Source of the DNA: Verrucomicrobia bacterium S94
GTDB taxonomy: Bacteria > Verrucomicrobiota > Kiritimatiellia > Kiritimatiellales > Pontiellaceae
Assembly (NCBI GenBank): GCA_004299845.1
Contig: CP036201.1
Location: 2,976,001 to 3,040,000, forward strand
DNA: 64,000 nucleotides
Direction: 5' to 3'
In this document: in pieces, positions 8,445 through 23,666 of the stretch
Layout of the letters: every line of letters starts with the position of its first letter
Position numbering within the stretch: the stretch's first letter is position 1
Notes under the pieces: generated by a model
Seen by the model: the letters and a program-made list of their open reading frames with translations, nothing else
Databases searched by the model: none
Told to the model about the DNA's origin: nothing
Made by a program: the position numbers and the translations under genes

Positions 8445-8669
8445 ATGACCGATCCGCTGATTAAATTTATTAAGGAGCGCCGCCGATCCATGGGGTTGAC
8501 CCAAAAAGATCTGGCTGATAAGGCCGGAGTCGGCCTGCGGTTTATTCGTGATTTGGAACAGGGCAAAGCATCCCTCCGACTGGATAAGGTTAATCAGGTA
8601 CTCGTGTTGTTTGGGCATCGAATGGAACCGGCCGCATTCCGCATGGAGGTAAACGATGAGGACAGCTGA
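8445..8669 (+). CDS. hipB: HipB-like antitoxin, HTH DNA-binding protein
   Basis: The 74-residue XRE/Cro-type helix-turn-helix protein (FIKERRRSMGLTQKDLADKA, GVGLRFIRDLEQGKASL) is the short HipB type that represses its own promoter and binds the kinase toxin. The stop codon overlaps the start of the next gene by 14 bases, showing translational coupling. Three putative operators lie immediately upstream. It lacks the long C-terminal tail of E. coli K-12 HipB, as expected for the three-gene HipBST form. Confidence 0.88.
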   Translation: MTDPLIKFIKERRRSMGLTQKDLADKAGVGLRFIRDLEQGKASLRLDKVNQVLVLFGHRMEPAAFRMEVNDEDS

Positions 8670-8985
8670 AGTCTATTTACAGGATCGGCTCGCGGGCATA
8701 CTGGAAGAGCTCGATAACGGATACCGGTTCTCCTACACGGCGGATTATCTCGCACAGAATGATGCCGCCCCCATCAGTCTGTCACTCCCGCTGCAGAAAG
8801 AGCCCTTTGAAGACAAACGCCTGTTCCCGTTCTTTGACGGACTGATCCCGGAAGGATGGTTGCTGAACATTGCCGAAAATACCTGGAAGCTGAATCCGCG
8901 GGATCGCATGGGGCTGCTGTTGAGCTGCTGCCGTGATTGTATCGGCGCGGTTTCTATTGTTCCGATGGAGGTAGAGCATGACTAA
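8656..8985 (+). CDS. hipS: HipS-like antitoxin, free-standing HipA N-terminal subdomain
   Basis: The 109-residue protein corresponds to the N-terminal subdomain 1 of HipA: VYLQDRLAGILEEL, then FSYTADYLAQNDAAPISLSLPL, and the conserved FFDGLIPEGWLLNIAE. In canonical HipA this module is fused to the kinase; as a separate gene between hipB and the kinase it defines the tripartite HipBST system, in which HipS is the toxin-neutralising partner. A GGAGG ribosome site precedes the ATG at 8656 and the gene overlaps both neighbours. Confidence 0.88.
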   Translation: MRTAEVYLQDRLAGILEELDNGYRFSYTADYLAQNDAAPISLSLPLQKEPFEDKRLFPFFDGLIPEGWLLNIAENTWKLNPRDRMGLLLSCCRDCIGAVSIVPMEVEHD

Positions 8986-9928
8986 ACCAACCTGCCACAT
9001 CTGTCTCCAACCATTGGAAAACGGTGAAGACCTCTTTCACGCTACCTGCTGCAAAAAGCTGTTTGGATCCACCAGGCCGCCGATCTTCCCCTATGCATGG
9101 GATGAATTGAACCAAATGGCGGAGCAGATCATCAGCCGGCACATCACCGTTCCCGGAGTTCAACCCAAGTTATCTATGCACATTGAGCGCGGCGGACGGT
9201 CTCAGGATTCACGGCTGACCCTGGTCGGCCTTGAAGGCGGATTCATCCTCAAGCCACCGGTTAAAGCATATCCGGAAATGCCCGAACTCGAACACCTCAC
9301 CATGCGAATGGCCGGCTGCTTTGGTATTGCCACCGCCGAATGCGGACTCATCCCGATGGAAGATGGGCAGCTCGCCTTCATCACCAAGCGCATGGATCGG
9401 ATCGGGAATAACAAACTGCACATGGAGGATATGTGCCAGCTTACCGACAAGTTGACCGAGCAAAAGTACCGCGGCTCCATGGAACAGATTGGCCGCGCCA
9501 TCCTGCGCCACTGCGACAACGCCCTGCTCGATGCCCTTCGCTTTTTCGAGATCACGCTCTTCAGTTTCCTCACCGGCAACTCCGACATGCACCTTAAAAA
9601 CTTCTCACTGCTCTACCAGCCCGGCGGTGCAGTAGCGCTATCCCCATCCTACGACCTGTTACCCACCCGGTTGCTGCTTCCGGAAGACCTCGAAGAATCC
9701 GCTCTCACCATCAACGGCCGCAAACGACGCCTGGACCGAACTGACTTCCTGCGCCTCGCCGAATCCCTGCGCCTGAATGACAAACAGGTTGCCAACGTGT
9801 TCTCACGTTTCAGTCACCATCTTGACAAAGCGTTCCAGATATTGGAATCCGGGCTCTGCTCGCAAGCGATGAAAGAACAATACACCGCCCTTATTCAGGA
9901 CAGGTCTGAGCGTCTAAACCTAAGATAA
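8978..9928 (+). CDS. hipT: HipT-like serine/threonine kinase toxin
   Basis: The 316-residue protein is a HipA-family kinase without the N-terminal subdomain. Visible motifs are ITVPGVQPKLSMHI (Gly/Ser-rich loop), FILKPP with the ATP-binding Lys, ELEHLTMRMA, the catalytic loop GNSDMHLKNFSLL and the metal-binding SPSYDLLPT. The first 30 residues carry CHICLQPL and FHATCCKKLFG, a possible zinc site common in the short HipT type. Characterised HipT phosphorylates tryptophanyl-tRNA synthetase; that target is inferred here. The ATG at 8978 has a GGAGG site and overlaps hipS by 8 bases. Confidence 0.88.
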   Translation: MTKPTCHICLQPLENGEDLFHATCCKKLFGSTRPPIFPYAWDELNQMAEQIISRHITVPGVQPKLSMHIERGGRSQDSRLTLVGLEGGFILKPPVKAYPEMPELEHLTMRMAGCFGIATAECGLIPMEDGQLAFITKRMDRIGNNKLHMEDMCQLTDKLTEQKYRGSMEQIGRAILRHCDNALLDALRFFEITLFSFLTGNSDMHLKNFSLLYQPGGAVALSPSYDLLPTRLLLPEDLEESALTINGRKRRLDRTDFLRLAESLRLNDKQVANVFSRFSHHLDKAFQILESGLCSQAMKEQYTALIQDRSERLNLR

Positions 9929-9968
9929 ACAACGTCCTGCTACCGGCCGAACTTAGTCGCTGCAAATT

Positions 9969-10187
9969 CTATAAAATCCGGTTTTTTAATTTTGGATTAT
10001 CCTTTTTCAGCTCTTCGTATGCTCTGATCTGTTCTTCAACTTTCCCATACTCACCTGCTGGATACATCAAGCAGAGCCACTTGAATAAATAGTTGAGCAG
10101 TGGCTTCTTTACCTCAAACTTTAATGTTTTGCGGTTTCGGTACAGATAGGATCCAAGTATGAGGTATTCCTCCGCGCAATTCTTCAT
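9969..10187 (-). CDS. Small hypothetical protein, possibly a gene fragment
   Basis: A 72-residue frame (from ATG 10187, or 78 residues from GTG 10205) encodes a Lys/Tyr/Leu-rich protein with YLILGSYLYRNRKTL and a helical tail (YGKVEEQIRAYEELKK). I do not recognise it. It is more AT-rich than its surroundings and lies between hipT and the bioA 3' remnant, so it probably came with the insertion. It may be the C-terminal fragment of a larger gene or may not be expressed. Confidence 0.35.
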   Translation of the reverse strand: MKNCAEEYLILGSYLYRNRKTLKFEVKKPLLNYLFKWLCLMYPAGEYGKVEEQIRAYEELKKDNPKLKNRIL

Positions 10188-10198
10188 AACCCCACTGC

Positions 10199-10279
10199 TC
10201 GACACCGCCCTTCATCATCTACAAACCCGAACTGATCCGCCTCTGCAACGCCGTCTGCGAAGTCGTTGCAACCCATTGA
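10199..10279 (+). pseudogene. Second, diverged bioA 3'-end remnant
   Basis: In frame from about 10199 the plus strand reads PPFIIYKPELIRLCNAVCEVVATH and stop. This aligns with the end of BioA ([24 protein letters not shown] and stop at 8148). Roughly 78% of bases match, including CGCCGTCTGCGAAGTCGT in both. No upstream part of bioA is attached. The arrangement suggests that the DNA between the two ends was inserted at the bioA 3' end and that one copy is the displaced original tail. Which copy is ancestral cannot be told from this window. Confidence 0.75.
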
Positions 10280-10714
10280 CCTGCTCTGACCCACCTGCTT
10301 CGGAACGGCTTTTTCATACGTTGCCTCCCTCAGAGGGCTGAAGTTCCGCTTTGGCGGCCGTCCATTTTTTGTCCTCATTTTCTGCAGGAATCCAAACAAC
10401 GATCCGGCCGATACATACCAACCCTTCATATATGACAGAGTATAAAGTGCAGTTTGTTACGAACCCGCGTCGCAAAAGCCCCCTGTCGATTGATTGAAAA
10501 GCTTTCAAACCTCCCCATAACGTCATCATTCTTTACGGGAAGCACAAGCCTATCCATCAAAACATCCCCTGATTTTTTACCCGATAATCCTCAATTATTT
10601 CAACAGTATATAACATACTGCTATATGAACATGTAAAAATCCTTTGACCTTCACATAAAATCCTGCAATAACAGAAAACAGTTTAAGGCATACTGTATCA
10701 GGAAATCTACAGAC
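10280..10714. other. Gap of 435 bases with no convincing gene
   Basis: Between the bioA remnant and the first hsdS only short, non-conserved frames occur on either strand. The last part is AT-rich and presumably contains the promoter of the restriction-modification operon. I see no RNA gene or clear terminator. Confidence 0.5.
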
Positions 10715-11311
10715 ATGACACCGAAAGAAGCCATCGGGAAACTGGCCGAAATCCAAATCGGCTACCAATTCCGCTCCAAGCCGAAAGCCGACGAAAACGG
10801 GAGCGTAAAGCTGATCCAGATTAAGGACATCCTCCCCGGCCGCAACGGAATCCATTCTGATTCAGCCCTGCGATTTGAACCGGAGCGGAATCCGAATAAA
10901 CAGCTGCTTCAAGAAGGTGATGTACTTTTTATGGGCAAAGGCACCGCGCCGTTTGCCTGCCGAATCATGAAACTTACCGGCCCGACCGTGGCCGGCGGCA
11001 TGTTTTTTATCCTGCGACCCGACACGCAGCGGATCCTGCCGGAATATCTGTCCTGGGTGCTGAACAACAAGCAGACACTGGAAAAGCTGAAAATCGCCTC
11101 CGGAACCGGCGTTGCGATGCCCGTGATCCGACGGAAAGAACTGGAGCGGCTGACCATCCCCCTGCCTCCGCTCGAAAACCAGCAACGGATCGGCGAGATC
11201 CAGGCCCTGAAAGAATTAGAGCAAAACCTGATGAAAGACTTGACCAAACAGCAACAGCTGCTTGCTGACGGAATTTGTAAAAAACTGATGGAAGGGAAAA
11301 CCGATGAGTGA
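10715..11311 (+). CDS. Half-size type I restriction specificity protein (single TRD)
   Basis: The 198-residue protein looks like one target-recognition domain plus one conserved helix of HsdS: an N-terminal start resembling KLAEIQIGYQFRSKP, then GDVLFMGKGTAPFACRIM, then MPVIRRKELERLTIPLPPLE and a helical tail (NQQRIGEIQALKELEQNLMK). Normal HsdS has two TRDs in about 400 residues, and a full-size hsdS lies 3 kb downstream. Half-S proteins can dimerise to give symmetric recognition sites. The stop overlaps the hsdM start by 8 bases, so it is translated together with hsdM. Confidence 0.82.
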   Translation: MTPKEAIGKLAEIQIGYQFRSKPKADENGSVKLIQIKDILPGRNGIHSDSALRFEPERNPNKQLLQEGDVLFMGKGTAPFACRIMKLTGPTVAGGMFFILRPDTQRILPEYLSWVLNNKQTLEKLKIASGTGVAMPVIRRKELERLTIPLPPLENQQRIGEIQALKELEQNLMKDLTKQQQLLADGICKKLMEGKTDE

Positions 11312-12815
11312 TCAACAGATTAAGAATGAGATTTTCAATGTGGTGTGGAGCGCCTGCGACACGTTCCGGGGCACGATCGATCCGAGCACCTATAAGGATT
11401 ATATCCTGACCATGCTGTTCGTGAAATACTTGAGCGATGTGCGCAAATCCAAACTTCTCGAATACGAAAAGCAGTATAAAGGGGATAAAACCCGGATCGA
11501 ACGGGCCATGCGGCACGAGCGTTTCACCATTCCCGAAGACTGCACCTTCGACTATCTCTACGGGAAGCGCAACGATCCGGAAATCGGGCAGACGATCAAC
11601 ACCGTCCTCGAAAAGATCGAAGATGCGAACAAAGCCAAACTGCACAATGTGTTCCGCAACATTGACTTCAACAGCGAAGCCAACCTCGGCAAACCCCGCC
11701 AGCGGAATGAGCGGCTCAAAAACCTGCTCGACGATTTTAACTCCCCAAAACTCGACCTTCGCAAAGAGCGGGTCGGTCATATGGATATTATTGGTGATGT
11801 CTATGAATATCTGATTGCAAAGTTTGCCTCGCAGGCCGGTAAAAAGGCGGGCGAATTCTACACCCCGGCCGAAGTATCCGAAACCCTGGCCCGTCTGATC
11901 GAACCGAAAAAAGGCGACCGTATCTGCGACCCGACCTGCGGTTCGGGATCGCTGCTGATTAAAGCCGCAAGACAGGTCGGCTGTAAGGATTTTTCGCTCT
12001 ACGGGCAGGAAATGAACGGCGCCACCTGGGCACTGTGCAAAATGAACATGTTCCTGCACGAAGTGGACAGCGCCCGCATTGAGTGGGAAGACACCATCCG
12101 CGAACCGCAGCTGCTCGAAGGGGACCACCTGATGAAGTTCGATGTGGTGATCGCAAACCCGCCCTTCTCGCTCGACAAATGGGGCCAGGAAATGGCAGCG
12201 ACCGACCGGTTTGAACGGTTCGGCCGCGGCATTCCGCCCAAGAGCAAGGGCGACTGGGCGTTTATCATGCACATGCTCGCCACCGCCGTAGAAGGTAAAG
12301 GCCGCGTCGGCGTGGTGGTTCCCCACGGCGTGCTGTTCCGCGGCGCGGCGGAAGGCAAAATCCGACAGGCCGTGATTGAGGAAAACCTGCTGGCGGGCGT
12401 AGTCGGCCTTCCGGCCAACCTGTTCTACGGGGCGGGTATTCCGGCGGCCCTACTGATCTTCGACAAGGCGCGCAAGCCGGGCGGCAAAGACGACGTTTTC
12501 TTTATCGACGCCTCACGCGAATTTGAACAGGGCACCAATCAGAATGTGCTCAAACCCGAGCACATGGATAAGATTGCAGAAACTTTCCGGAAACGCGAGG
12601 TGAAGGAGAAATACAGCTATTCCGCAACCTTTGATGAAATCAGGGAAAACGATTTCAATCTGAACATTCCGCGCTATGTCGACACCTTCGAACCGGAACC
12701 GGAAGTGGATATCCCGGCGGTGCAAAAAAAGATCGCGGATCTGGAAAAGCAATTGGCCGGGGTGCGAACGAAAATGGATGGATACTTAAAAGAGTTAGGC
12801 TTTCGGGAGAATTAA
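11304..12815 (+). CDS. hsdM: Type I restriction-modification methyltransferase subunit HsdM
   Basis: This 503-residue N6-adenine methyltransferase has the HsdM N-terminal helical domain (about residues 8-135), GEFYTPAEVSETLARLIEP, the SAM motif DPTCGSGSLL (209-218) and the catalytic motif NPPF (285-288). It methylates host DNA with HsdS and forms the restriction complex with HsdR, encoded 6 kb downstream. Length and motifs are normal. It is coupled to the half-size hsdS upstream. Confidence 0.95.
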   Translation: MSDQQIKNEIFNVVWSACDTFRGTIDPSTYKDYILTMLFVKYLSDVRKSKLLEYEKQYKGDKTRIERAMRHERFTIPEDCTFDYLYGKRNDPEIGQTINTVLEKIEDANKAKLHNVFRNIDFNSEANLGKPRQRNERLKNLLDDFNSPKLDLRKERVGHMDIIGDVYEYLIAKFASQAGKKAGEFYTPAEVSETLARLIEPKKGDRICDPTCGSGSLLIKAARQVGCKDFSLYGQEMNGATWALCKMNMFLHEVDSARIEWEDTIREPQLLEGDHLMKFDVVIANPPFSLDKWGQEMAATDRFERFGRGIPPKSKGDWAFIMHMLATAVEGKGRVGVVVPHGVLFRGAAEGKIRQAVIEENLLAGVVGLPANLFYGAGIPAALLIFDKARKPGGKDDVFFIDASREFEQGTNQNVLKPEHMDKIAETFRKREVKEKYSYSATFDEIRENDFNLNIPRYVDTFEPEPEVDIPAVQKKIADLEKQLAGVRTKMDGYLKELGFREN

Positions 12816-12864
12816 CCGCGAAGGAACGCAAAGAGCGCAAAACAGATTCCGAGCATTGAAAGGG
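12816..12864. repeat. Dispersed GAACGCAAAGAGCGCAAA-type spacer repeat after hsdM
   Basis: Right after the hsdM stop lies CCGCGAAGGAACGCAAAG followed by AGCGCAAAACAGATTCCGAG and CATTGAAAGG. It belongs to the same loose family as the spacers at 14231 and 15586, built of repeated A/C-G-C-A-G/A-A units. The CAGATTCC-GA-CATTG tail is shared with the copy at 14231. Such degenerate 8-9-base periodic spacers are known from intergenic regions of many environmental bacteria; their function is not known to me. Confidence 0.45.
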
Positions 12865-12906
12865 TATGTTCAAGAGGCAGGAAAGATGATGGCCCCCGGG
12901 GAATCT

Positions 12907-12955
12907 TTACATATAGATTTTCAAATGTAATGATATCGAATAAAGATTACATATA
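12907..12955 (+). promoter_or_regulatory. AT-rich promoter region of fic with two TTACATATA repeats
   Basis: TTACATATA occurs at 12907-12915 and 12947-12955, exactly 40 bases apart, in the AT-rich stretch before fic (start 12983). They could be binding sites for an autoregulator; the Fic protein itself ends in a winged-helix-like segment. Evidence is only repetition and placement. Confidence 0.35.
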
Positions 12956-12982
12956 AAGCGAATCAGGTCAGGAACCATACCG

Positions 12983-14152
12983 ATGAAAAGAGCCATCCAG
13001 GGCGAATACCAAGTCATTTCGACCGTTGGAGAAAAGGCCACGGCCTTTATCCCGGCAAACCTGCCGCCAACGCCGCCGATTGAGTGGAGCCCGGCACTGC
13101 GCAGCCGCTTCGATGAGGCCTTGCTGGCACTGGGGCGACTCGATAGCGTCACCCTCCTGCTGCCGGACGTTTCCCTTTTTCTCTATACCTATGTACGCAA
13201 GGAAGCCGTGCTTTCCTCGATGATTGAAGGCACGCAATCCTCCCTCTCTGACCTGCTGCTTTTTGAACTGAAAGAATCTCCCGGAGTCCCGTTCGACGAT
13301 GTGAGAGAAGTCAGCAACTATGTCGCGGCGCTGGATCACGGGCTGAATCGACTGCGAGAGGGGTTCCCGCTATCCCTCCGCCTGTTGCGGGAGATGCATG
13401 AATGTCTGTTGAAATCAGGGCGCGGCAGCCGGAAAACCCCGGGGGAATTCCGACGCAGCCAAAACTGGATCGGAGGAACCCGCCCCGGCAATGCCGTGTT
13501 TGTGCCGCCCCCGCCCGAACGGGTGGCCGACTGCATGGGGGCGCTGGAAAAATTTCTACACGACGAGCCAGCACCGGCTTTACTGAAAGCTGCGCTGGCC
13601 CACGTCCAGTTTGAAACCATCCACCCCTTTCTGGACGGCAACGGACGGCTCGGGCGACTGCTGATTACACTATTACTGTGCGAAGCGGGCATCTTAAAAC
13701 TGCCCATGCTCTATCTCAGCCTCTATTTCAAAACGCACCGGCAAGCCTATTACGAATTTTTGAACCGCGTCCGAATCGATGGCGACTGGGAAGTCTGGCT
13801 GGATTTCTTTGCCGAAGCCATCATCGAAACCGCAACCCAGGCGGTCAGCACGGCGCAGCGGCTGGACGCGCTGGCACGGCAGGACCGAGAACGGATTCAG
13901 GCGATCGGGCGGGCCGCCGGTTCCGCGCTGCGGCTGCACCACGAACTTCAGATCCGCCCCGTCACGACCTCCCGTGCGCTGGAACAGGCCACCGGTCTGA
14001 GCCACGTCACTGTCAACAAAACCCTCGACCGCCTTTGCACACTCGGACTGGTCAGCGAACAGACCGGAGCCCGGCGCAACCGAATCTTCAGCTACACCGA
14101 ATACCTTCGTATCTTAAACGAAGGCACCGAACTGCCGGGAGACGGGGCATGA
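12983..14152 (+). CDS. Fic-family AMP transferase with inhibitory helix and C-terminal wHTH
   Basis: The 389-residue protein has an N-terminal Fic_N domain with the inhibitory motif S-x3-E-G (Ser78, Glu82, Gly83 in SSMIEGT), so it is a class II, self-inhibited Fic enzyme. The catalytic motif HPFLDGNGRLGR lies at residues 214-225 and the flap near NWIGGTRPGNAVFVPPPP. The C-terminus (ALEQATGLSHVTVNKTLDRL) looks like a winged helix, so it may bind DNA. Fic proteins transfer AMP or other nucleotides to protein targets; the target here is unknown. It interrupts the hsd gene set, a position where accessory effectors are often found. Confidence 0.9.
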   Translation: MKRAIQGEYQVISTVGEKATAFIPANLPPTPPIEWSPALRSRFDEALLALGRLDSVTLLLPDVSLFLYTYVRKEAVLSSMIEGTQSSLSDLLLFELKESPGVPFDDVREVSNYVAALDHGLNRLREGFPLSLRLLREMHECLLKSGRGSRKTPGEFRRSQNWIGGTRPGNAVFVPPPPERVADCMGALEKFLHDEPAPALLKAALAHVQFETIHPFLDGNGRLGRLLITLLLCEAGILKLPMLYLSLYFKTHRQAYYEFLNRVRIDGDWEVWLDFFAEAIIETATQAVSTAQRLDALARQDRERIQAIGRAAGSALRLHHELQIRPVTTSRALEQATGLSHVTVNKTLDRLCTLGLVSEQTGARRNRIFSYTEYLRILNEGTELPGDGA

Positions 14153-14230
14153 AAATACGCATCCGAACATTAAAAAAAACGAAACTCGGAATAGACTGGA
14201 AACACGCAAAACTCCAAGGACTGGAAGAAT

Positions 14231-14282
14231 TTATCCACAGATGAACGCAGATCGACACAGATTCCCCGAACATTGGAAACCA
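14231..14282. repeat. Dispersed spacer repeat between fic and hsdS
   Basis: TTATCCACAGATGAACGCAG followed by ATCGACACAGATTCCCCGAA and CATTGGAAACC. This is the second member of the spacer family in the restriction island. The end (CAGATTCCCCGAACATTGGAAA) closely resembles the end of the copy after hsdM. Confidence 0.4.
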
Positions 14283-14305
14283 ATAACTTTTAACGGACCA
14301 CGGAT

Positions 14306-15577
14306 ATGACGACCGACCGAAATGAAAACAGACCGGGCTATAAGGAAACCAAGATTGGGTGGATTCCTGAGGAGTGGGAGGCAGTAACGGTCCGAGAAAA
14401 AGCCACAAAAATTGGCAGTGGTATTACACCAAGAGGAGGAAAAAGCGTTTATTTGGACGAAGGCATTCCCTTCATCCGAAGTCAAAATGTTCAAGCAGGA
14501 TATTTTGAACCCAAAGATCTTCAATACATCTCCAACGAGCAAAATGACAAGATGGCCTCTTCAGAAGTGAAGCCTAAGGATATTTTATACAACATTACTG
14601 GAGCCTCAATTGGCAGAGCATGCCTATTTCCTACTGAAATCGGAACAGCCAATGTCAACCAGCATGTCTGCATTGTAAGACTGAAGGCAAACGAGTGTAA
14701 CCCCTCATTTGCAGTTCGGGTGATGAATAGTGACATTGCCAAAAAGCACTTATATGAAAACCAAGCCGGAGGGGGACGCGAGGGCCTAAACTTCCAGAAC
14801 CTCGGAAATTATAGAATCCCCCTCCCCCCTCTCCCCGAGCAGGAGAAGATTGCGGAGGTGCTGGGGTGCTGGGATGAGGGGATCCAGACCTTGGAAGATT
14901 TGATCGAGCAGAAGCGGCTGCGCAAAAAGGGACTGATGCAGCAACTGCTGACCGGTAAAAAACGGTTACCCGGTTTTTCCGAGGATTGGAAAACTGTAAA
15001 ACTGGGAACAATTGCGAGCATTCCAAAAAAGCAGAAACTTGAATCAGTAGAAGGTAAATCTCTTCTCACCGTAAAACTGCATTGCCTTGGCATTGAGAAG
15101 AATGAAAACACCCGGCCCAAGTTATCAGAAAAAGGGCGCCCCTATTTTAAGCGAATGGCCGGCGAATTTCTTATTGGCCGCCAAAATTTTCATAACGGCG
15201 GATTCGGAATTGTTCCTAAAAGCCTAGACGGGTTAATCGCATCAAACGCCATTACAACGCTCAAAATTGACCAGACAAAAGTGTGCAAGAACTTTCTCCT
15301 AATGACATTCTCCAACCCCGACTATTACAAACGTGTAGGTCACAGGATGGACGGCACAGGGCAAAAAGAGCTGTCTGAGAAGGAAATCCTGACGCTAGAC
15401 ATCCCATATCCCCCGCTCGAAGAACAAAAAGCAATCTCAGCGGTGCTGAGAACGGCAGATGAGGAGATTGCACTGCTGGAAGCGGAGCTGGATGCGCTAC
15501 GGAAGCAGAAGAAGGGATTGATGCAGAAGCTGCTGACGGGGGAAGTGCGGTGCCCGGAGTTCCGGACAGCGGTTTAA
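14306..15577 (+). CDS. hsdS: Type I restriction specificity subunit HsdS (two TRDs)
   Basis: The 423-residue protein has two target-recognition domains, each followed by a conserved helix. The first half ends YRIPLPPLPEQEKIAEVLGC with RLRKKGLMQQLLTGKKR; the second ends IPYPPLEEQKAISAVLRTAD with RKQKKGLMQKLLTGEVR. That internal repeat is the signature of full-length HsdS. It should set the sequence specificity of the HsdM/HsdR complex. It lies on the other side of fic from hsdM. The ATG at 14306 gives the usual YKETKIGWIPEEW beginning. Confidence 0.95.
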   Translation: MTTDRNENRPGYKETKIGWIPEEWEAVTVREKATKIGSGITPRGGKSVYLDEGIPFIRSQNVQAGYFEPKDLQYISNEQNDKMASSEVKPKDILYNITGASIGRACLFPTEIGTANVNQHVCIVRLKANECNPSFAVRVMNSDIAKKHLYENQAGGGREGLNFQNLGNYRIPLPPLPEQEKIAEVLGCWDEGIQTLEDLIEQKRLRKKGLMQQLLTGKKRLPGFSEDWKTVKLGTIASIPKKQKLESVEGKSLLTVKLHCLGIEKNENTRPKLSEKGRPYFKRMAGEFLIGRQNFHNGGFGIVPKSLDGLIASNAITTLKIDQTKVCKNFLLMTFSNPDYYKRVGHRMDGTGQKELSEKEILTLDIPYPPLEEQKAISAVLRTADEEIALLEAELDALRKQKKGLMQKLLTGEVRCPEFRTAV

Positions 15578-15585
15578 CGAAATTA

Positions 15586-15622
15586 TTTCACCACAGAGAG
15601 CACAGAGGACACGAAGGAATAT
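15586..15622. repeat. Dispersed CACAGAG-type spacer repeat after hsdS
   Basis: TTTCACCACAGAGAGCACAG followed by AGGACACGAAGGAATATTG, directly after hsdS and directly before the next start codon at 15628. It is the clearest copy of the periodic CACAGAG/ACACGAAG spacer in the window. Its reading in one frame (HHREHRGHEG) is a familiar artefact in annotated genomes. Confidence 0.55.
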
Positions 15623-15627
15623 TGAGC

Positions 15628-17300
15628 ATGAACCTGCCGATTCAATTGCATTACCGCGCAAGCTTTGATGTAAGCGAACCTTATATTAAAGGCGAGCTGT
15701 GGTCTGACTGCACCAAGGAAATCAGAAAATGGATCTCCCGTAAAATTGGTCGGCCACAGCGGGGAGATTCTTTCTGGAGGGGCTGGTTTTTTCGCGGAGG
15801 CGAGTGGAACCATCCTCAGGATAAAGCCACCACAATTCGTACCGGTGCGCTGACGGGATCCGGCACAGAAACCGCGCCGCAATTCTGGGCGTTGCGCTAT
15901 CGGCACGCAGACAGGAGCTGCAGCCACCGGATGTGGCAGACCGACATTGGAATCACTGTTTTGGATGACAACCGCCTGCGTTTCAATATTCAGGTCGGGC
16001 ATTATATGCGGGCCAATTTTCTGGGTGAAATGCCCGCCCTGCCTGAGCCAACTGCCCCGGGTATTGTGCAGAGCCTGCTGAAGAATAACCGCTGGCGGTG
16101 CATGGCGGGAAGCCAGGATTTGTTATCTGAGCCGGAGACCATTAAAGCCGGACAAGTCGAGCAGGTGGTGAAGGCCCTCAAAAACAAGGAACGCACCTGC
16201 CCTGTTATTCTCGTATCAAAAGAGCGCGACAACACACACCCCCTCATCAATGCAGCAACACTACAACGCCTGACGGCGGGTGCCGCCAGCGTATATTTAT
16301 TGGAAACCGAACAGGTTGAAAGTGAGTTTGAGTTTTGGGCGGCCAATCGCTACCGATGCAACCAGGGCATGGTACGGGCTTATCTTCCCGGGCTTGATTT
16401 TAGTAATGAGCATGATGCCCAACGCCATCGCTATTTTTTCCCCCGCCAGATTTCCGAAGAAGGCGCAGAATCTGTCATTCGGCAACTGGTGCGGATGTGC
16501 TGCCGCTTTGCCCCCGGCGCAAAGGCCAGAGTATTTTTTCACTGGAGGAACTGCACAGTGTTGCCCGTGCCCATCGACTGAATGAGTTGAGAGAAAACAA
16601 GACGGATGGAAATCAGGACGAGTGGATCAAACTCCTGGAAGAAACGAATGAGGAACTGGAAAACGAAAACCGTCAATTGGAAGCGGAACGAAATGCGCTG
16701 CAGACACAGGTGCAGGAACTGGACGATGAACTGAGCAATGGTCAATATGAAGTACGATCCGCAAAGAAGGAAGCTAAGCGCCTTCGCACCCAGGCCAGCC
16801 AGATGCAAACAAAGCTACAGGCACTCGAAGAATTTACCACCCTTCCGAGTACCCTGTCCGAAGTTCTCCAGAAAATCGGCAATCTTCACGCCGATAAAGT
16901 GGTTGTCATCGATCGGGCTCTCAAATCCGCCGAAGAATACAAAGGATTTAAGGATCTTCATAAAGCATGGGAATGCCTATGGGCAGCTTCAACTGAACTC
17001 TACAATCTCCATTTCGATGAAGCGGGTGCTAACAACATTGAAATGGATTTTAAGAACCGAACCGGATTTGATCTCTCTCTGAAAGAAGGTCGTATGACGC
17101 AGAACGACCGAGATCTGATGCGGCTGAGGCAAGTTCAGCATAATGGAAAAACACTCGACATCACCCCGCATGTAAAATGGGGAAACAAAGAACCAAAATG
17201 TCTTCGGGTTTATTACGCCCCCTGCCCTGATGAACAGAAGATCATCATCGGCCATTGCGGTCCGCATCTGGATAACCGGACCAGTTCAAAAATCAAGTAG
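15628..17300 (+). CDS. Unrecognised coiled-coil protein of the RM island, interrupted by a -1 frameshift
   Basis: Two overlapping frames (15628-16581 and the later frame to 17300) read as one protein of about 557 residues if the ribosome or sequence shifts -1 at the T6 run 16534-16539 (A TTT TTT C). Joined, the sequence passes smoothly through RVFFSLEELHSVARAHRLNEL. The N-terminal 300 residues are globular (TDIGITVLDDNRLRFNIQVG, CPVILVSKERDNTHPLI), the middle is a strong coiled coil (EETNEELENENRQLEAERNA), and the C-terminus ends VYYAPCPDEQKIIIGHCGPHL. I do not recognise the family. Either one T was lost in sequencing, the gene is decayed, or the shift is programmed. A role in defence is inferred from the neighbours only. 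Confidence 0.6.
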
Positions 17301-17313
17301 TAAGGAAGTCACA

Positions 17314-18033
17314 ATGGAAAAGACAATCAATGTGTATTGCGACGAGAGCTGCCATCTGCCGAACGATGAGTCGAATGCCATGGTGCTGGGCGCTCTATGG
17401 ACATACAAAAGCCGAGCGGCGGAACATAACGCAGCCATTGCGGCCCTGAAAAAGAAACACGGGTTGTCGCGCTACTTTGAAATAAAATGGACGAAGGTGT
17501 CCGGCGGAAAACTCCCTTTCTATCTGGATCTGGTCGATTATTTTTTTTCCCAGCCGGCTATGGGATTTCGGGCCTGGGTGATTCCCGACAAATCCATTCT
17601 GCGGCATGAGGATTACAGGCAGACGCACGATGACTGGTACTACAAAATGTATTTTTATCTGCTGCGCAACCTGATCTGGCGCGATCACCATTATGAGATC
17701 TACATGGACATTAAAGACACGCGCAGTCGCAAACGCCTCCAGGAAATGCAGGCGTATTTGCACAATGCAAAATACGATTTTTCGCGCGATATGATCCGCA
17801 ATATTCAGCATGTTCACTCACATGACATCGGCCTCATGCAGCTTTCCGATCTCTTAATCGGAGCACTTTCCTACAAATTCCGAAAACAAACAGGCAGCAC
17901 GGCCAGGCTGCAGATTATCGAACGCATCAAAGAAAAATCCGGACACCAACTTGAAATGAACACCCTGCCCTCGGAGAAAAAATTCAACCTCTGTATCTGG
18001 ACTCCTAACAGCGGAGGGTTTGAAAATGCCTGA
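17314..18033 (+). CDS. DUF3800 domain protein
   Basis: The 239-residue protein begins INVYCDESCHLPNDESNAMV, the Asp-Glu-Ser start typical of DUF3800, and continues with FEIKWTKVS and YYKMYFYLLRNLI, then MDIKDTRS and IGLMQLSDLLIGAL. These acidic residues are spaced as in the RNase H-like fold proposed for the family; nuclease activity is inferred. DUF3800 proteins are frequent cargo in phage-defence and mobile regions. AAGGA lies 8 bases before the chosen ATG at 17314. It overlaps the next gene by 8 bases, so the two act together. Confidence 0.8.
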   Translation: MEKTINVYCDESCHLPNDESNAMVLGALWTYKSRAAEHNAAIAALKKKHGLSRYFEIKWTKVSGGKLPFYLDLVDYFFSQPAMGFRAWVIPDKSILRHEDYRQTHDDWYYKMYFYLLRNLIWRDHHYEIYMDIKDTRSRKRLQEMQAYLHNAKYDFSRDMIRNIQHVHSHDIGLMQLSDLLIGALSYKFRKQTGSTARLQIIERIKEKSGHQLEMNTLPSEKKFNLCIWTPNSGGFENA

Positions 18034-18556
18034 TTGGCTGCCGGAACTGCTGAACGTCGATCCTTGGAACGGGCAGACCTACGACATGCTTTATCATATC
18101 TTTTGCCGCGATATACGGAATGGGCGTCTGACCTATGACGGACACCGAATATGGTTTTTCCGCGATATGGATGACGGTCGAGAGGAGCTCTTCTGGCATC
18201 TCACTTCCAGGGAAAACAAGCCGAAACCCATCCCCCGCCGAAAACAGCGACACTACCCCAGAGGACAAACGCACGAACCGGAAACGATAGAGCGGTATCC
18301 GGATCTGCGCCGATGCGAGCGGCTGAACTGGGTGAAGCCGCTGACTGAACACACGACCGAACCGGAAGTGCTGGCATGGGACTACGAAGAAGGCAACGGT
18401 ACCATCAAAACCTACGTCTGGATCAAAGACTACGATTTCGTGGTTATTATGAAAAAATATCCTGACGGTGGTCGGCGGCTGATAACCTCATTCTACGTGG
18501 ACAGCGAATACACGAAACAGGATTTTGAGAGGAAATATGCAAATCGTGAAAATTAA
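18026..18556 (+). CDS. Hypothetical protein with RelE/BECR-nuclease-like C-terminus
   Basis: The 176-residue protein has a GGAGGG ribosome site 7 bases before ATG 18026. Its second half reads RRCERLNWVKPLTEH, then IKTYVWIKDYDFVVIMKK and RRLITSFYVDSEYTKQDF. This beta-rich pattern (W/YxWxxDxDYxVxL followed by LxTAFYV) is what I associate with phage-Barnase-EndoU-ColicinE5-RelE-like (BECR) nucleases. The family link is from memory and moderate. It is translationally coupled to the DUF3800 gene, suggesting a two-gene module such as toxin and partner. Confidence 0.55.
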   Translation: MPDWLPELLNVDPWNGQTYDMLYHIFCRDIRNGRLTYDGHRIWFFRDMDDGREELFWHLTSRENKPKPIPRRKQRHYPRGQTHEPETIERYPDLRRCERLNWVKPLTEHTTEPEVLAWDYEEGNGTIKTYVWIKDYDFVVIMKKYPDGGRRLITSFYVDSEYTKQDFERKYANREN

Positions 18557-18558
18557 AA

Positions 18559-18584
18559 AGGTCCGCTCAGACGGCGGACCCATC
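18559..18584 (+). terminator. Hairpin after the BECR-like gene
   Basis: GGTCCGC (18560-18566) and GCGGACC (18574-18580) form a 7-base stem right after the stop codon. The T-tract is weak (CATCTCCTTC), so it may be an imperfect terminator or attenuator separating the accessory genes from hsdR. Confidence 0.5.
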
Positions 18585-18701
18585 TCCTTCAGCTCTTACA
18601 CCCGTGAAGGATGGCCAATGAGTTCCTGCAAGTTACCTCAAATTATTTGTTTGTCAACCTCACTTTCAGTTCGCTGTGCCGAGGCCAATTAATGGAGCCG
18701 T

Positions 18702-21700
18702 ATGATGTCAGAAGAACTCCCGAAATATGAAGCGACCCCAAGCTACCTGGAGGCGGTGCAGTCACAGTTACCGGCCCTGCAACTGCTCATCAACATGGGC
18801 TGGACATATCTGAGCCCGGAGGAGTGTGTGGAGCTGCGCAACGGGCGGCTGAGCACGGCCCTGCTCGAACCGGTGCTGCTTGAGCACATCCGGGAAAATT
18901 GCCGGTATGATTTTAAGGGATGCACACATGCATTTTCCGAAAACGCGATCCAGGCGGCGGTGCAGGAACTCAAAAATATTCAGGCCACCGGGGCGACGTT
19001 CCAGAATGAGGAGGTTTACGACCTCCTCTGCCTGGGAACGAGCCAGCCGCAGACAGTCGAAGGCGACACGAAGAGCTTTGATCTGAAATTCATCGATTGG
19101 CAGAACCCGGAAAACAACAGCTACCACTGCACGGCGGAGTTTAAGGTTGAGCGGGTCGGGCAGTCGAAGCACTATATTCCCGATATTGTGCTTTTTGTGA
19201 ATGGCATTCCCGTGGTGGTGGCGGAATGCAAGCGGGCGGCCTATACCGATCCGAACAAGAAGCCGATTGATCTGGCGATTGCCCAGCTCGGGGATTATCA
19301 GCAGAGCGACGGCATCCCGCAGGTGTTCCTGACCTCGCAGCTTTTGCTGGCACTGGCGCGCGATAAAGCGGAATACGGAACGACAGGCACCCCGCGCAAG
19401 TTCTGGAGCCGGTGGCGCGAAGAAGGCATTGATGATGAAATCCGGGATCTGATCGGCATCACACTGCCGGATGACCAGCAAGTAAAACTGCTCGATGGAC
19501 CGTTTGCCTCCAACAAACACGCATTTATGAAATTGCTCAAGGAAGGCCGCTTTGTCTACGAGCAGGATCGAACCCTTTACGGCATGTGCCGGCCGGACCG
19601 GTTGCTGAGGCTGATATTTCAGTTTATCCTCTACGACAACGGACTGAAAAAGATTGCCCGTTATCAACAATACTTCACCGTGATCGATATTCTAAAGCGG
19701 GTGACCGCCGGGCCGGAAGGCGAACCGCGAACCGGCGGTGTGGTCTGGCATACCCAGGGCAGTGGAAAATCGCTTACGATGGTGATGTTGGCAAAGGCAC
19801 TGGCCTTGTCGGAAAAGATCAGGAATCCGCGCATTATTCTGGTGACCGACCGTATCGACCTGGACGATCAGATTTACGGCACATTCAAGGCGTGCAACCT
19901 GAAGGCGGAACAGGCGCGCACCGGCTCACACCTGATTGAGATGCTGCAGGACGGAAAGCGGCACATCATCACCACGCTCATTAATAAATTTGCGGCAGCG
20001 ACCGCCCGGTCTTCTATTGAGGTGGACCATAATACCTTTGTGCTGGTGGATGAAAGCCACCGGAGCAATTACAGTGAACACCATGCCCGCATGAAACTGG
20101 CGCTTAAAGGTGCCTGTTTTATCGGCTTTTCCGGTACCCCGCTGGCCAAAGACCCGAAAAAGAACACCTTTGCCAAGTTCGGCGAGATGTTTAAACCGCC
20201 CTACACCATTGCGCGGGCCGTTGAGGATAAAGCGGTACTTCCGCTGATTTACGAGGCACGGCACGTTCCCCAACCGGTGCAGAAAGAGGCTATCGATGGC
20301 TGGTTTGAACGGCTGACAAGCCATCTGACCGAGGCCGAACGGGCCGACCTGAAAAAGAAGTACTCATCCGAAAAACAACTGAATAAGGCGGCGCAGAAAA
20401 TCCGGATGGTGGCCTGGGATGTGAGCCTGCACTATGCCATGGCTTATCAGGGAACCGGCCTGAAAGGCCAGCTGGTCGCTCCCGATAAGGAAGCGGCCCG
20501 GCTCTATAAAAAAATGCTGGATGAATTCGGCATGGTGACCAGCGAAGTGCTGGTTTCCGGTCCCGGCACCCATGAAGGCGAAAGTAAGAACCCGGAAGCC
20601 AGTGCTGAAGAAAAAGCGTTCTGGACGGCCATGATGGATCGATACGGCTCCGAACAGAAATACAACAAACAACTTATCAATGCCTTTAAAAAGTCCGAGG
20701 AGCCGGAAATCATCATTGTGGTGGATAAACTGCTGACCGGATTCGATGCACCCTGCAACACCGTGCTTTACCTGGCCCGGACCCTGAAGGACCATACCCT
20801 GCTGCAGGCCATTGCCCGTGTAAACCGCCTTTACGAGGGCAAGGAGTTCGGACTGATTATGGACTACAGCGGGGTCATCGAAAACCTGGACGAAGCCATC
20901 GATTTTTATACTCACCTTGCCGACTACAAACACGAGGATCTGGTCAACACCGTCTCCTTTATTTCCGACGAAACCAAAAAGCTGCCGCAACTGCATTCCG
21001 ACCTTTGGGAATTGTTCACTTCTGTAAAGGGCAGTACAGACACTGAAGTTTATCAGGAGCATCTGCGCGATGATGAGCGTAGAGCAAAATTCTATGAACG
21101 ATTCAGTGCATTCGCGCGGGCCATGGCCCTGGCACTCGCCTCAACGACGTTCCTTGAACAGACGGAGGAAGAGCAGATCAATATCTACAAAAAGGATCTG
21201 AAGTTTTTCCGCAACCTGCGTGCCGAAGCCTCGATCCGGTTTCAAGAGCGGGTTGATTTTTCGGAGTATGAGCCGAAAATCCGAAAACTGCTTGATACGC
21301 ACGTTGGAGCCGGTGATGTGGAGCAGCTCATCGAACCCATCGACCTGCTGAATACCGAACAACGCGAAGAAGTGCTGAACAAAGAGGGCCGGAGTGCGGA
21401 ATCCAAAGCCGACATGATTGCCTCCGCAACCCGGCACACCATAGAAAAGGAGTTCGAAAAAGATCCGGCCTTTTTCACCAAATTTTCCAAGCTGCTGGAA
21501 GACGTATTAGAAGCTCTTCATGAGAAACGTCTGAAGGCCGCGGAAGCGTTGGCCCAAATTAAGGATATTGCCGTCAAGGTGGCCACGCATACCGGTGATG
21601 ATGTGCCCGAGCAACTGGTCGGACATGATATGGCTCGGCGCTATTACGGTACCGTACAGGAAGAAATCAAAGAATACGTCACCGCCAAACCGGATGCAGG

Positions 21701-21911
21701 TGCAACGATTGCTCTTGAAGTGGTGAGGCGTCTGGAACCGCACAAAGTGAGGGACTGGACGAATAACACCGATGCGCTCAATGCGATGCGCCGCGAAATC
21801 GATGACATTTTTTTCGAGGTTGCAGATGAATTCAAACTGAAATTTCCGCTGGAACTGCAGGACAAGCTGATCGACAAATGCCTGGAAATTGCCATCGCCA
21901 ATGAAAAGTAA
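18702..21911 (+). CDS. hsdR: Type I restriction endonuclease subunit HsdR
   Basis: The 1069-residue translocating endonuclease has an N-terminal nuclease domain with PDIVLFVNGIPVVVAECK (Asp161, Glu175, Lys177 as the PD-ExK residues), a helicase motor with Walker A TQGSGKS near residue 352, DESHRSN near 450, and the later motifs VVDKLLTGFDAP and LQAIARVNRLY. It cuts DNA after translocation by the HsdM/HsdS complex. Length and motifs look complete, so the system may be active. The gene overlaps the following metalloprotease gene by 11 bases. Confidence 0.95.
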   Translation: MMSEELPKYEATPSYLEAVQSQLPALQLLINMGWTYLSPEECVELRNGRLSTALLEPVLLEHIRENCRYDFKGCTHAFSENAIQAAVQELKNIQATGATFQNEEVYDLLCLGTSQPQTVEGDTKSFDLKFIDWQNPENNSYHCTAEFKVERVGQSKHYIPDIVLFVNGIPVVVAECKRAAYTDPNKKPIDLAIAQLGDYQQSDGIPQVFLTSQLLLALARDKAEYGTTGTPRKFWSRWREEGIDDEIRDLIGITLPDDQQVKLLDGPFASNKHAFMKLLKEGRFVYEQDRTLYGMCRPDRLLRLIFQFILYDNGLKKIARYQQYFTVIDILKRVTAGPEGEPRTGGVVWHTQGSGKSLTMVMLAKALALSEKIRNPRIILVTDRIDLDDQIYGTFKACNLKAEQARTGSHLIEMLQDGKRHIITTLINKFAAATARSSIEVDHNTFVLVDESHRSNYSEHHARMKLALKGACFIGFSGTPLAKDPKKNTFAKFGEMFKPPYTIARAVEDKAVLPLIYEARHVPQPVQKEAIDGWFERLTSHLTEAERADLKKKYSSEKQLNKAAQKIRMVAWDVSLHYAMAYQGTGLKGQLVAPDKEAARLYKKMLDEFGMVTSEVLVSGPGTHEGESKNPEASAEEKAFWTAMMDRYGSEQKYNKQLINAFKKSEEPEIIIVVDKLLTGFDAPCNTVLYLARTLKDHTLLQAIARVNRLYEGKEFGLIMDYSGVIENLDEAIDFYTHLADYKHEDLVNTVSFISDETKKLPQLHSDLWELFTSVKGSTDTEVYQEHLRDDERRAKFYERFSAFARAMALALASTTFLEQTEEEQINIYKKDLKFFRNLRAEASIRFQERVDFSEYEPKIRKLLDTHVGAGDVEQLIEPIDLLNTEQREEVLNKEGRSAESKADMIASATRHTIEKEFEKDPAFFTKFSKLLEDVLEALHEKRLKAAEALAQIKDIAVKVATHTGDDVPEQLVGHDMARRYYGTVQEEIKEYVTAKPDAGATIALEVVRRLEPHKVRDWTNNTDALNAMRREIDDIFFEVADEFKLKFPLELQDKLIDKCLEIAIANEK

Positions 21912-22632
21912 TGCGCAACATGAGTATATTTTGGCGTTCGGTAACCGACGGATTCCCTATCGTCTGGTACGCGAAGAGCGCAAGCGTTACCGCATTACGA
22001 TTACACCGGATATGCGGGTAACGGTGTCGGCCCCCAAACAGGCAACGGACGCACAGATTGAGACCATGCTGAATGGCAAAAAAAGGTGGATCGTTCGAAA
22101 GCTCGATCTCGTCGAATCGTTCATCCCCCTGCCCGCCCCCCTCCGTTATGTGAGCGGGGAAACGATCCGCTATATAGGGAGGCAATACCGACTTAAAGTC
22201 GAGAGCAGCGAGCAGTATTCCGCCAAATTGAAAGGGAAATATCTCGAGATTTGCGTGACCGACAAAAACGATTTCGAAGCCATCAAGGGGATGGTTGACA
22301 AGTGGTATCAAACACGTGCGGAAGAAATCTTCAAACGGTATATGGCTACGTGTGAAAAAATTGCCGGCCGGCATGACATTCCTCCTGCAACGTTTGTTCT
22401 CCGCAAGATGCAGACACGCTGGGGAAGCTGCAGCAGCAAAGGGCGCATTATCTTAAACACTCATTTGATTCAGGCACCTGTTCATTGTATTGAATATGTA
22501 ATCATGCACGAACTCTGCCATCTCAAACACCACAACCACTCACCGGCCTTTTACCGCCTGCTCACCCGATGCATGCCGGACTGGAAACAACGGAAAGCGC
22601 TGCTGGATCGGATTGCGTTGCCACAAAGCTAA
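21901..22632 (+). CDS. YgjP-like M48-type metallopeptidase (DUF45)
   Basis: The 243-residue protein has the YgjP/DUF45 hallmark: TRWGSCSSKGRIILN, then YVIMHELCHLKHHNHSPAFY, where HELCH is the HExxH zinc site, followed by MPDWKQRKALL. Family members are routinely encoded directly after hsdR in type I RM loci. Their role there is unclear, possibly proteolytic control of the complex. I chose ATG 21901, overlapping the last codons of hsdR, over the in-frame ATG at 21889. Confidence 0.88.
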   Translation: MKSNAQHEYILAFGNRRIPYRLVREERKRYRITITPDMRVTVSAPKQATDAQIETMLNGKKRWIVRKLDLVESFIPLPAPLRYVSGETIRYIGRQYRLKVESSEQYSAKLKGKYLEICVTDKNDFEAIKGMVDKWYQTRAEEIFKRYMATCEKIAGRHDIPPATFVLRKMQTRWGSCSSKGRIILNTHLIQAPVHCIEYVIMHELCHLKHHNHSPAFYRLLTRCMPDWKQRKALLDRIALPQS

Positions 22633-22883
22633 CTGGAGAAACGTTCCATTTCTCACAGAGTGGATGAATCGTATCTCCGTCTGGCTTCTACCATCAATTG
22701 TAACGATTCTTTTGATCCGGTTGTCGTACATAACCGAACCGTCATTCCACCTTTTCTCCGGAAAGTTCAGCAACAGCTTTCCGGAAAGGCGGAGAGGTGT
22801 AAGATTTGCAACCAATCCCATTTACTAAAACATTCCGGTCTTCACGACAGCGTTATTCCGCGCAGCGACGCAGAGCAACTGTG

Positions 22884-23470
22884 TCATAACTCAACCTTTA
22901 TTTCTGCTTTTCTAAGTTCGGACTGCATGTGGATGAGCATTTTCCTCATCCCTGCGACCATTGCACATTTATAGGGTTTCCCGCGCGATTGGAGTCCATC
23001 GGTATAGGCTTTGATTACAGGATTATACATCGCTGCAGTTCTGGTCGCCATATACAGAGCTTTTCTGACCTTCGCACGCCCGCCTTTGATTTTTCGTTTT
23101 CCTTTAAATCTGCCGCTGTCTCTGTTGTAGGGGGCAACGCCGGCGAGAGCAACGAGTTCATTTCTGCTGAGCATCGTGATTTCACCGAGGAAGGCCATGA
23201 TCATCCATGCGCTAACTTCGCCAACGCCTTTGATGGCAGTGAGACAGGATAAACAGGCCGACAGACTCTCATCGGATTTGATCAGTTCCCGGATGCGCTT
23301 CTCAATGGCTGTGATTTCTTTTTTCAGGACATTGAGCATGCGTTTGATAGAGGCATGGATGAAGTCGGGGGAGTTCCGGATCCGGTTCTTTTCCCGTGCA
23401 CCCTGTTCTTTAAGATGATCGCGGAACCATTTATGACTGAATTTCTCTGCGTCCTCAGCCTCTGAGAGGG
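22884..23470 (-). pseudogene. IS110-family transposase, C-terminal remnant
   Basis: Only the C-terminal half of an IS110/IS116/IS902 transposase remains. From ATG 23339 it reads LSCLTAIKGVGEVSAWMIM, LVALAGVAPYNRDSGRFKGK and KVRKALYMATRTAAMYNP, the Transposase_20 region. The open frame continues upstream to a stop at about 23470 without the N-terminal DEDD/RuvC domain, so it cannot transpose. At 23439-23470 the frame runs into a CTCTGCGTCCTCAGCCTCTG spacer-type sequence, likely the truncation junction. It lies 120 bases from a tRNA gene at the end of the restriction island. Confidence 0.82.
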
Positions 23471-23591
23471 ATCAAATTTATACCGAAGGATAATTTTAAC
23501 GTTTGGTATAATTCGCGCTTTTCAACAATTCCGACGAAACAGATTCTCAAAAAGAAACCCTCGCAACCGACTGATTACGAGGGTTTTAAAA

Positions 23592-23666
23592 TGGAGCCGG
23601 CGGTCAGAGTCGAACTGACGACCAACGGATTACAAATCCGTTGCTCTGCCACTGAGCTACGCCGGC
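23592..23666 (-). tRNA. tRNA-Thr (TGT)
   Basis: Read on the minus strand, GCCGGCG (acceptor, from 23666) pairs with CGCCGGC near the 3' end, followed by T and an encoded CCA (23592-23594). The D arm is GCTCAGTGGCAGAGC, the anticodon stem-loop ACGGA-TTTGTAA-TCCGT gives anticodon TGT (threonine, ACA codon), and the T arm contains GTTCGACTC. All stems pair. It marks the boundary of the island at 10-23 kb, but I see no duplicated tRNA 3' end that would prove integration here. Confidence 0.95.

Follow-up and report, generated by a model that had tools for sequence, protein, structure and literature searches.

A predicted nuclease pair of the phage P1 rlfAB family, embedded with HEC-07 in a type I restriction-modification operon of a verrucomicrobial genome

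In the prr locus, prrC is embedded in a type I restriction-modification (RM) locus. PrrC carries ABC-ATPase motifs, is silenced by the linked type I RM enzyme and is activated by a phage anti-restriction factor, as described in PMC2610378. In enteropathogenic Escherichia coli (EPEC), the hsdS-hsdR interval of a type I system within a phage-defending island holds DarTG2, and this site has been called a potential recombination hotspot (PMC12255303). Phage P1, finally, carries the adjacent genes rlfA and rlfB (rapA and rapB in P7), which its sequence record annotates as ‘possibly associated with lytic replication’. Here we describe a type I RM operon in a 64,000-nucleotide stretch of DNA from Verrucomicrobia bacterium S94 (contig CP036201.1, positions 2,976,001 to 3,040,000; hereafter, the window). 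By profile matching, the space between its hsdS and hsdR genes holds two separate candidate defense modules that are already catalogued in PADLOC, namely HEC-07 and the gene pair PDC-M04A/PDC-M04B (M04A and M04B), and the sequences place PDC-M04 in the same two-gene family as P1 rlfA/rlfB. We read PDC-M04 as an RM-embedded, defense-linked nuclease pair, probably an RNA-cleaving response to infection whose mechanism we infer, and give this reading about even odds (roughly 0.5).

The pair was recognized with PADLOC-DB 2.0.0, which also supplied the HEC-07 profile. M04A covered positions 1-229 of the 232-position PDC-M04A profile at E = 1.7e-91, and M04B, which adjoins and overlaps it, matched PDC-M04B at 2.8e-47. 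M04A is also a DUF3800 protein (Pfam PF12686; 60.6 bits vs. a gathering score of 21); the 178-amino-acid (aa) M04B protein had no Pfam match at E 1. P1 RlfA and RlfB matched the same two profiles at 1e-95 and 1.3e-51, respectively. In direct comparison, M04A of the window is 48% identical to P1 RlfA over 227 aa, and M04B is 24% identical to P1 RlfB over 144 aa. All genes of the operon (window positions 10715-22632) lie on the + strand, in the following order:

10715-11311 (+): half-length hsdS with one target-recognition domain, opening the operon (Pfam Methylase_S, 1.1e-8)
11304-12815 (+): hsdM, type I DNA methyltransferase (Pfam N6_Mtase, 2e-105; TIGR00497 above cut-off)
12983-14152 (+): fic, SoFic-like, cargo of slot 1 between hsdM and hsdS (Pfam Fic_N and Fic; PADLOC SoFic, 1.3e-119)
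14306-15577 (+): full-length hsdS (Pfam Methylase_S, 8e-26, in two stretches)
15628-16581 (+): HEC-07 gene, part 1, cargo of slot 2 between hsdS and hsdR, running to a frame break near 16.54 kb (PADLOC HEC-07, 1.7e-28, profile positions 86-294)
16497-17300 (+): HEC-07 gene, part 2, in another frame, with coiled coil and C-terminal domain (PADLOC HEC-07, 3e-20, profile positions 302-553; NsnC, 6.5e-12)
17314-18033 (+): PDC-M04A/RlfA, DUF3800 protein, predicted RNase H-like nuclease (Pfam DUF3800, 3.7e-16; PADLOC PDC-M04A, 1.7e-91)
18020-18556 (+): PDC-M04B/RlfB, predicted BECR-fold RNase, 178 aa (PADLOC PDC-M04B, 2.8e-47)
18702-21911 (+): hsdR, type I restriction subunit (TIGR00348, 1.5e-130, above cut-off)
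21889-22632 (+): ygjP-like metallopeptidase gene, closing the operon (Pfam YgjP-like, 3.8e-63)

This gene set and order, read in the initial annotation from the letters and their open reading frames (ORFs), agree with the ORF list, Pfam and NCBIfam, and its description of the region as a type I RM locus that has accessory genes embedded in it holds with PADLOC as well; HsdM, HsdS and HsdR together make the RM set complete. The ORF coordinates likewise bear out the tight spacing reported there, with M04A starting 13 bases past the coiled-coil gene and M04A and M04B overlapping by 14 bases when M04B is read from its TTG start (178 aa), or by fewer from the alternative ATG at 18026 (176 aa). Promoter and terminator scans of the locus returned no more than chance level. 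The half-length hsdS at 10715-11311, beside the full-length gene, may provide a second DNA specificity.

The initial annotation had proposed that the coiled-coil, DUF3800 and BECR-type genes form a unit of their own. They do not; the conserved unit is the pair formed by the DUF3800 gene and the small-protein gene. Among 288 genomes of the phylum, PDC-M04A was found in 17 (8 of them at E <1e-60) and HEC-07 in 23 at a cut-off of E 0.001, and the window genome is the only one on both lists; the weakest hits of either list may represent different DUF3800 or coiled-coil proteins. When it is excluded, 0 genomes are shared between the 16 with PDC-M04A and the 22 with HEC-07 (n = 287; 1.2 expected; Fisher p = 0.62), and we therefore see neither linkage nor avoidance. 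A neighborhood search gave the same picture: neither PDC-M04A nor PDC-M04B was present in the flanks of any of 41 HEC-07 loci in GTDB genomes (up to 10 kb, often less at contig ends), and HEC-07 was not found in the viral loci L071-L132 or the cellular PDC-M04 loci L051-L058 (L and G numbers are our working labels for loci and genomes). Each module occurs inside RM operons without the other. The two outcomes named beforehand as contrary to a compound system were thus both seen, since the genes do not co-occur and the families are already listed as candidates. As a remark on the combination, the statement that no described system has this set may stand; the parts, by contrast, match HEC-07 and PDC-M04.

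The two halves of the coiled-coil gene match a single HEC-07 profile in order, but in two frames, with the break near 16.54 kb interrupting the gene in the assembly. Because of this interruption, the joined 557-residue protein assumed earlier is not a product of the present sequence. We considered and rejected a programmed frameshift: the gene is open in one piece at 38 of the 41 related loci, and since the broken copies at L160, L167 and L170 break at profile positions unlike that of the window, there is no sign of a common shift site. Nothing striking came out of a quick, uncontrolled fold of the region. Mutation or assembly error is the likelier explanation. The broken copy at L160 (9171-10975) belongs to Rhodocyclus tenuis and, as at L167 and L170, is split over two or more frames. 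An intact HEC-07 protein from L133 was modeled from a 27-row alignment (predicted local distance difference test, pLDDT, 85.9; predicted template modeling score, pTM, 0.62). The model comprises an N-terminal domain, a long coiled coil, a C-terminal alpha/beta domain and, at about residues 171-317, a thioredoxin-like domain with structural matches up to Z 10.5. Among the structural matches listed, which are filled by the thioredoxin-like part and weak Bet v 1-like matches, none assigns the N-terminal or C-terminal domain to a family. Thioredoxin activity of the middle domain was discarded as a candidate function, as CxxC is absent from the modeled sequence and occurs anywhere in only 5 of 27 relatives. 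Pfam gave weak matches to the 27 members, mostly coiled-coil. From the model we infer that HEC-07 could serve as a sensor or scaffold. A search for HEC-07 in phages gave no match, and 11 plasmid records gave partial matches only.

HEC-07 shares its address with the window copy in other genomes. In G038 (L064, also L133), a relative from the same class, a one-frame HEC-07 gene lies between hsdS and hsdR of the same operon, without PDC-M04, and HEC-07 takes this place again in L138 (Gemmatales) and L145 (an uncultured bacterium). At L068:9066-10649, a HEC-07 gene stands among large genes that we take to resemble a BREX system, possibly another host system.

The operon itself belongs to a recurrent type I RM design (half-hsdS, hsdM, slot 1, hsdS, slot 2, hsdR, ygjP) that takes exchangeable defense cargo. 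hsdR matched at E <=1e-100 in 22 of 240 phylum genomes. From the 22 matches besides that of the window, 18 stretches were taken, G038 was treated apart, and G209, G218 and G156 were left out; as the L194 stretch was too short, 17 related operons were compared. A half-hsdS-like gene precedes hsdM in 13 of these 17, ygjP follows hsdR in 15, and cargo between hsdS and hsdR is read from the ORF lists in 14 (none in L201, L210 and L216). Profiles found neither HEC-07 nor PDC-M04 in the 17 operons. PADLOC was run on nine of the 22 listed slot-2 ORFs, and six matched at <=1e-5: PDC-S39, NucC, an HNH-type protein (PDC-M68A and CBASS effectors), a CBASS cyclase, PDC-S23 and PDC-S01. The other three of the nine, from L202, L209 and L214, had no PADLOC match at 1e-5. 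In L202, six small ORFs fill slot 2 (9729-13416); we take one of them (10373-11107) to resemble a nucleotide cyclase, for which PADLOC and Pfam gave no match at the limits used. Slot 1 varies as well: in L201, the closest relative by its hsdR (88% identical), it encodes an AlbA_2/Fic-C protein while slot 2 is empty, and in G038 (L064:3720-7714) it encodes two proteins, one of 789 aa that weakly matches ZacB, PDC-M27B and PbeA and one of 573 aa for which PADLOC gave no match. Around the operon of the window, two adjoining ORFs to the left (8656-9928) resemble a HipA kinase in two parts; just to the right lie an ORF that resembles part of an IS110-type transposase (22884-23339, -) and a tRNA-Thr gene (23592-23666, -).

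Unlike the trio, the A-B pair recurs. Of 61 viral or phage loci, comprising P1, P7, Bbif-1 and 58 of the 59 viral contigs that carry A or part of A (L132, with no scorable A ORF, was left out), 55 have M04B overlapping or directly after M04A. These loci include many near-copies of P1, and dereplication leaves 42 A sequences. The loci with no M04B beside A are L092, L109, L124, L126, L128 and L129, and three of these (L109, L128 and L129) end at or within A. In all eight cellular loci L051-L058, both genes are present, with B overlapping or directly after A. Twelve residues of M04A are invariant in 49 of 49 sequences (C9, D10, E11, E56, K58, R86, D132, K134, S169, Q176, D179 and K223), among them the acidic set D10, E11, E56, D132 and D179. 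Together with the DUF3800 family match, these acidic residues support the earlier suggestion that the DUF3800 protein is a putative nuclease. In M04B, H60 and R98 are invariant in 34 of 34 sequences, and F58, R101 and W104 are conserved in >=90%.

The fold predicted for M04A, RNase H-like, is carried over from the literature: DUF3800 proteins beside Cas12 are described as having an RNase H fold with a catalytic rearrangement, and DUF3800 genes have been linked to RNAs (PMC10910872). Because of that link, a structured RNA partner was looked for. Rfam gave no match above its gathering score in window positions 10000-23500 (two hits at E <=1 were far below it), and in nine other loci it found nothing beside the pair, its hits there being a tRNA and the C4 elements of P1.

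M04B was modeled with AlphaFold2 from a 34-row alignment (mean pLDDT 92.2, pTM 0.84). Structural alignment with VIA-align placed toxins at ranks 1-20 (Z 6.2 to 3.7), 19 of them by title; we take the remaining entry, HP0892, to be a toxin too. The Z scores were 6.2 for CdiA-CT, 5.5 to 4.7 for colicin D, 5.0 for HigB1, 4.3 for BrnT and 4.3 and below for RelE, and clearly unrelated folds start at rank 27 (Z 3.2). We take these top toxins (colicin D, CdiA-CT, RelE, HigB and BrnT) to be BECR-fold RNases, and the model thus lends moderate support to M04B being a BECR-fold protein. One unnamed phage protein in a viral structure library matched at 4.4e-11. Sequence searches against solved structures gave nothing convincing for A, B or HEC-07.

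In cellular loci, the pair often sits beside DNA-modifying systems. Ten cellular PDC-M04A loci, the ten matches at 1e-30, were examined, and seven have a methyltransferase-based system next to them: type I in the window and L057, type III in L051 and L053, Hma-like in L052 and type IIG-like in L055 and L058. One of these (G000:C1:2231499-2232182; L002, L051) is a second PDC-M04 pair of the window genome, again without HEC-07, lying between the methyltransferase (6.8e-234) and restriction (1.4e-223) genes of a type III system with a DrmD-like helicase. Two near-identical viral contigs, L100 and L103, read hsdM-hsdS-A-B-hsdR, without HEC-07.

Under the reading that we favor, M04B would be a BECR-fold RNase, shaped like the colicin D, CdiA and RelE/HigB toxins, that cleaves tRNA or mRNA once released or activated. 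M04A, RNase H-like and with its invariant acidic set, would control M04B or act with it, and the pair would mount an RNA-directed, abortive-type response. Its placement among several kinds of DNA-modification systems fits a guard role, or that of a second line, in which the pair would fire once modification-based defense has been beaten or overwhelmed, in the way that PrrC backs up EcoprrI. A broader version, which we offer tentatively, is that of a mobile two-nuclease guard that plugs into at least four methyltransferase-based defenses (type I, IIG and III RM and Hma-like) and fires on the RNA of infected cells when these are defeated, with P1 rlfAB the same device. P1 rlfAB would then be a defense cassette and not a replication function, because P1, with its own res-mod region, carries this device.

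Several observations weigh against an RM-linked, RNA-cleaving defense pair. The count of seven in ten comes without a background rate for RM neighborhoods; L054, L056 and L237 show no RM partner in the stretch examined (L237 is cut by a contig end), and hsd-like genes appeared in only 5 of 59 viral loci (L100, L103, L091, L113 and L123) in a window-based search. Genome G375 has a PDC-M04B-like gene between hsdS and hsdR (L238:8987-9427, -) with no A found within 19 kb, so that pairing is strong but not absolute. The position of P1 rlfA, directly behind an annotated C1 repressor operator and repL/oriL, fits a lytic-phase role as well as a prophage-borne defense. The activity of PDC-M04 members is a prediction. 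The BECR-type fold suggested for M04B in the initial annotation agrees with the model, but Foldseek found no match in the PDB at E <=0.001 (the best, toxin-antitoxin entry 6af4, reached 0.029), and because the structural matches are modest (best Z 6.2, <8), membership in that fold family is likely, not proven.

The alternative that survives best, although we find it somewhat doubtful, is that of a simple toxin-antitoxin or addiction module, in which PDC-M04/RlfAB, with B as toxin and A as its neutralizer, stabilizes an RM operon or prophage and does not fight phage. The genes overlap with the putative toxin second, and M04B models like the toxins of toxin-antitoxin and contact-dependent inhibition systems. 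Toxin genes also turn up where rlfAB should be. The repL-to-pmgG stretch is matched by 710 plasmid records (>=80% covered in 98), and in three other P1-like plasmids compared from repL to the bplB-like gene, the rlfAB place is taken in two by a small hypothetical gene and hokD (one also with a MazG-like gene) and in the third by a small hypothetical gene and another hypothetical gene. Published comparisons likewise describe rlfAB as deleted or replaced in other P1-like elements, once by orfs that include an antibacterial toxin (PMC6906374). On the other hand, M04A is large, an acidic set invariant in 49 of 49 sequences is unusual for a binding antitoxin, and frequent siting inside methyltransferase-based defenses suggests more than addiction. 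Moreover, this alternative overlaps the defense reading, as many toxin-antitoxin pairs act in defense.

We consider it unlikely that the pair works on behalf of the phage or mobile element, in lytic replication (as the P1 annotation has it), host takeover or counter-defense, with bacterial copies captured or turned to defense. The location of P1 rlfAB after repL/oriL and the C1 operator would suit such a role, as would the presence of A or part of A on 59 viral contigs. Yet rlfA and rlfB are listed as non-essential in a table of P1 genes (PMC10695390), and rlfA-rlfB-pmgF is given as one of eight highly variable regions of P1-like elements, in which rlfAB and res-mod have a low G+C content (PMC9603915). 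The seven of ten cellular copies beside methyltransferase systems also speak against it.

Hitch-hiking is very unlikely in our view. If the hsdS-hsdR slot were simply a recombination hotspot, as the site was called for the EPEC system (PMC12255303), its cargo could be inactive or unconnected with the RM enzyme, and HEC-07 would already be decaying here. The cargo does vary among related operons, the closest of which has nothing in slot 2, and HEC-07 is frame-interrupted here and broken at three other loci. However, A and B are intact in the window, keep their invariant residues and are paired in most phage and bacterial loci, and six of the nine slot-2 proteins scanned in relatives belong to PADLOC families. 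A single compound system of HEC-07, the DUF3800 protein and the small nuclease, with the coiled-coil protein as sensor, is scarcely tenable: the tight one-strand spacing would suit it, as would a coiled coil joined to a thioredoxin-like domain lacking CxxC, but 0 of 41 HEC-07 loci carry PDC-M04 in the flanks examined, the phylum lists overlap only in the window genome, each module is found separately in RM operons and HEC-07 is interrupted here.

The link to phage P1 gives the finding its added value: from the RM-embedded candidate family and the RNase-toxin-like model of the window's B, the unassigned P1 pair rlfAB gains a concrete, testable hypothesis. Both the P1 record and PHROG 16230 file P1 RlfB (L071:4693-5157) as a ‘replication protein’, a label that may mislead the annotation of RM-embedded relatives. 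The locus is a further case of defense genes embedded in an RM operon, here built of PADLOC candidates, and the operon family forms a compact natural series for the study of hsdS-hsdR cargo. Literature searches brought up no paper with a mechanism for PDC-M04, and full-text searches listed none that links PDC-M04, HEC-07, DUF3800, rlfA/rlfB and embedded defenses; a preprint on embedded defenses (doi 10.1101/2024.01.29.577857) is known to us from citations only.

Set beside described systems, the operon resembles the EPEC RRDM island in layout, with defense cargo between hsdS and hsdR, although its cargo is unrelated to DarTG2 (PMC12255303). Like PrrC with EcoprrI, the PDC-M04 pair joins a putative RNase to a type I RM enzyme, but here action upon the defeat of restriction is only proposed, and unlike PrrC, neither M04A nor M04B matches an ATPase family in Pfam, PADLOC or NCBIfam. 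The BECR toxins (colicin D, CdiA-CT, RelE, HigB and BrnT) head the structural match list of M04B, which differs from them in its low scores (best Z 6.2, with 4 to 16% identity over the top 26 rows or less) and its extra N-terminal part. Both halves of the coiled-coil gene resemble HEC-07 of PADLOC, although this copy is split over two frames and sits in a type I RM operon. The pair matches PADLOC PDC-M04 in both components, adjacent and in order. P1 RlfA/RlfB (P7 RapA/RapB) agrees with it in the same respects, with the same order, abutting or overlapping genes and matches to both profiles, but the P1 pair stands behind repL and a C1 operator whereas that of the window lies inside an RM operon. 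The parts of this locus are ordinary, since the candidates are already catalogued and their setting is of a known kind, and the point of real interest is the identity of the pair with P1 rlfAB.

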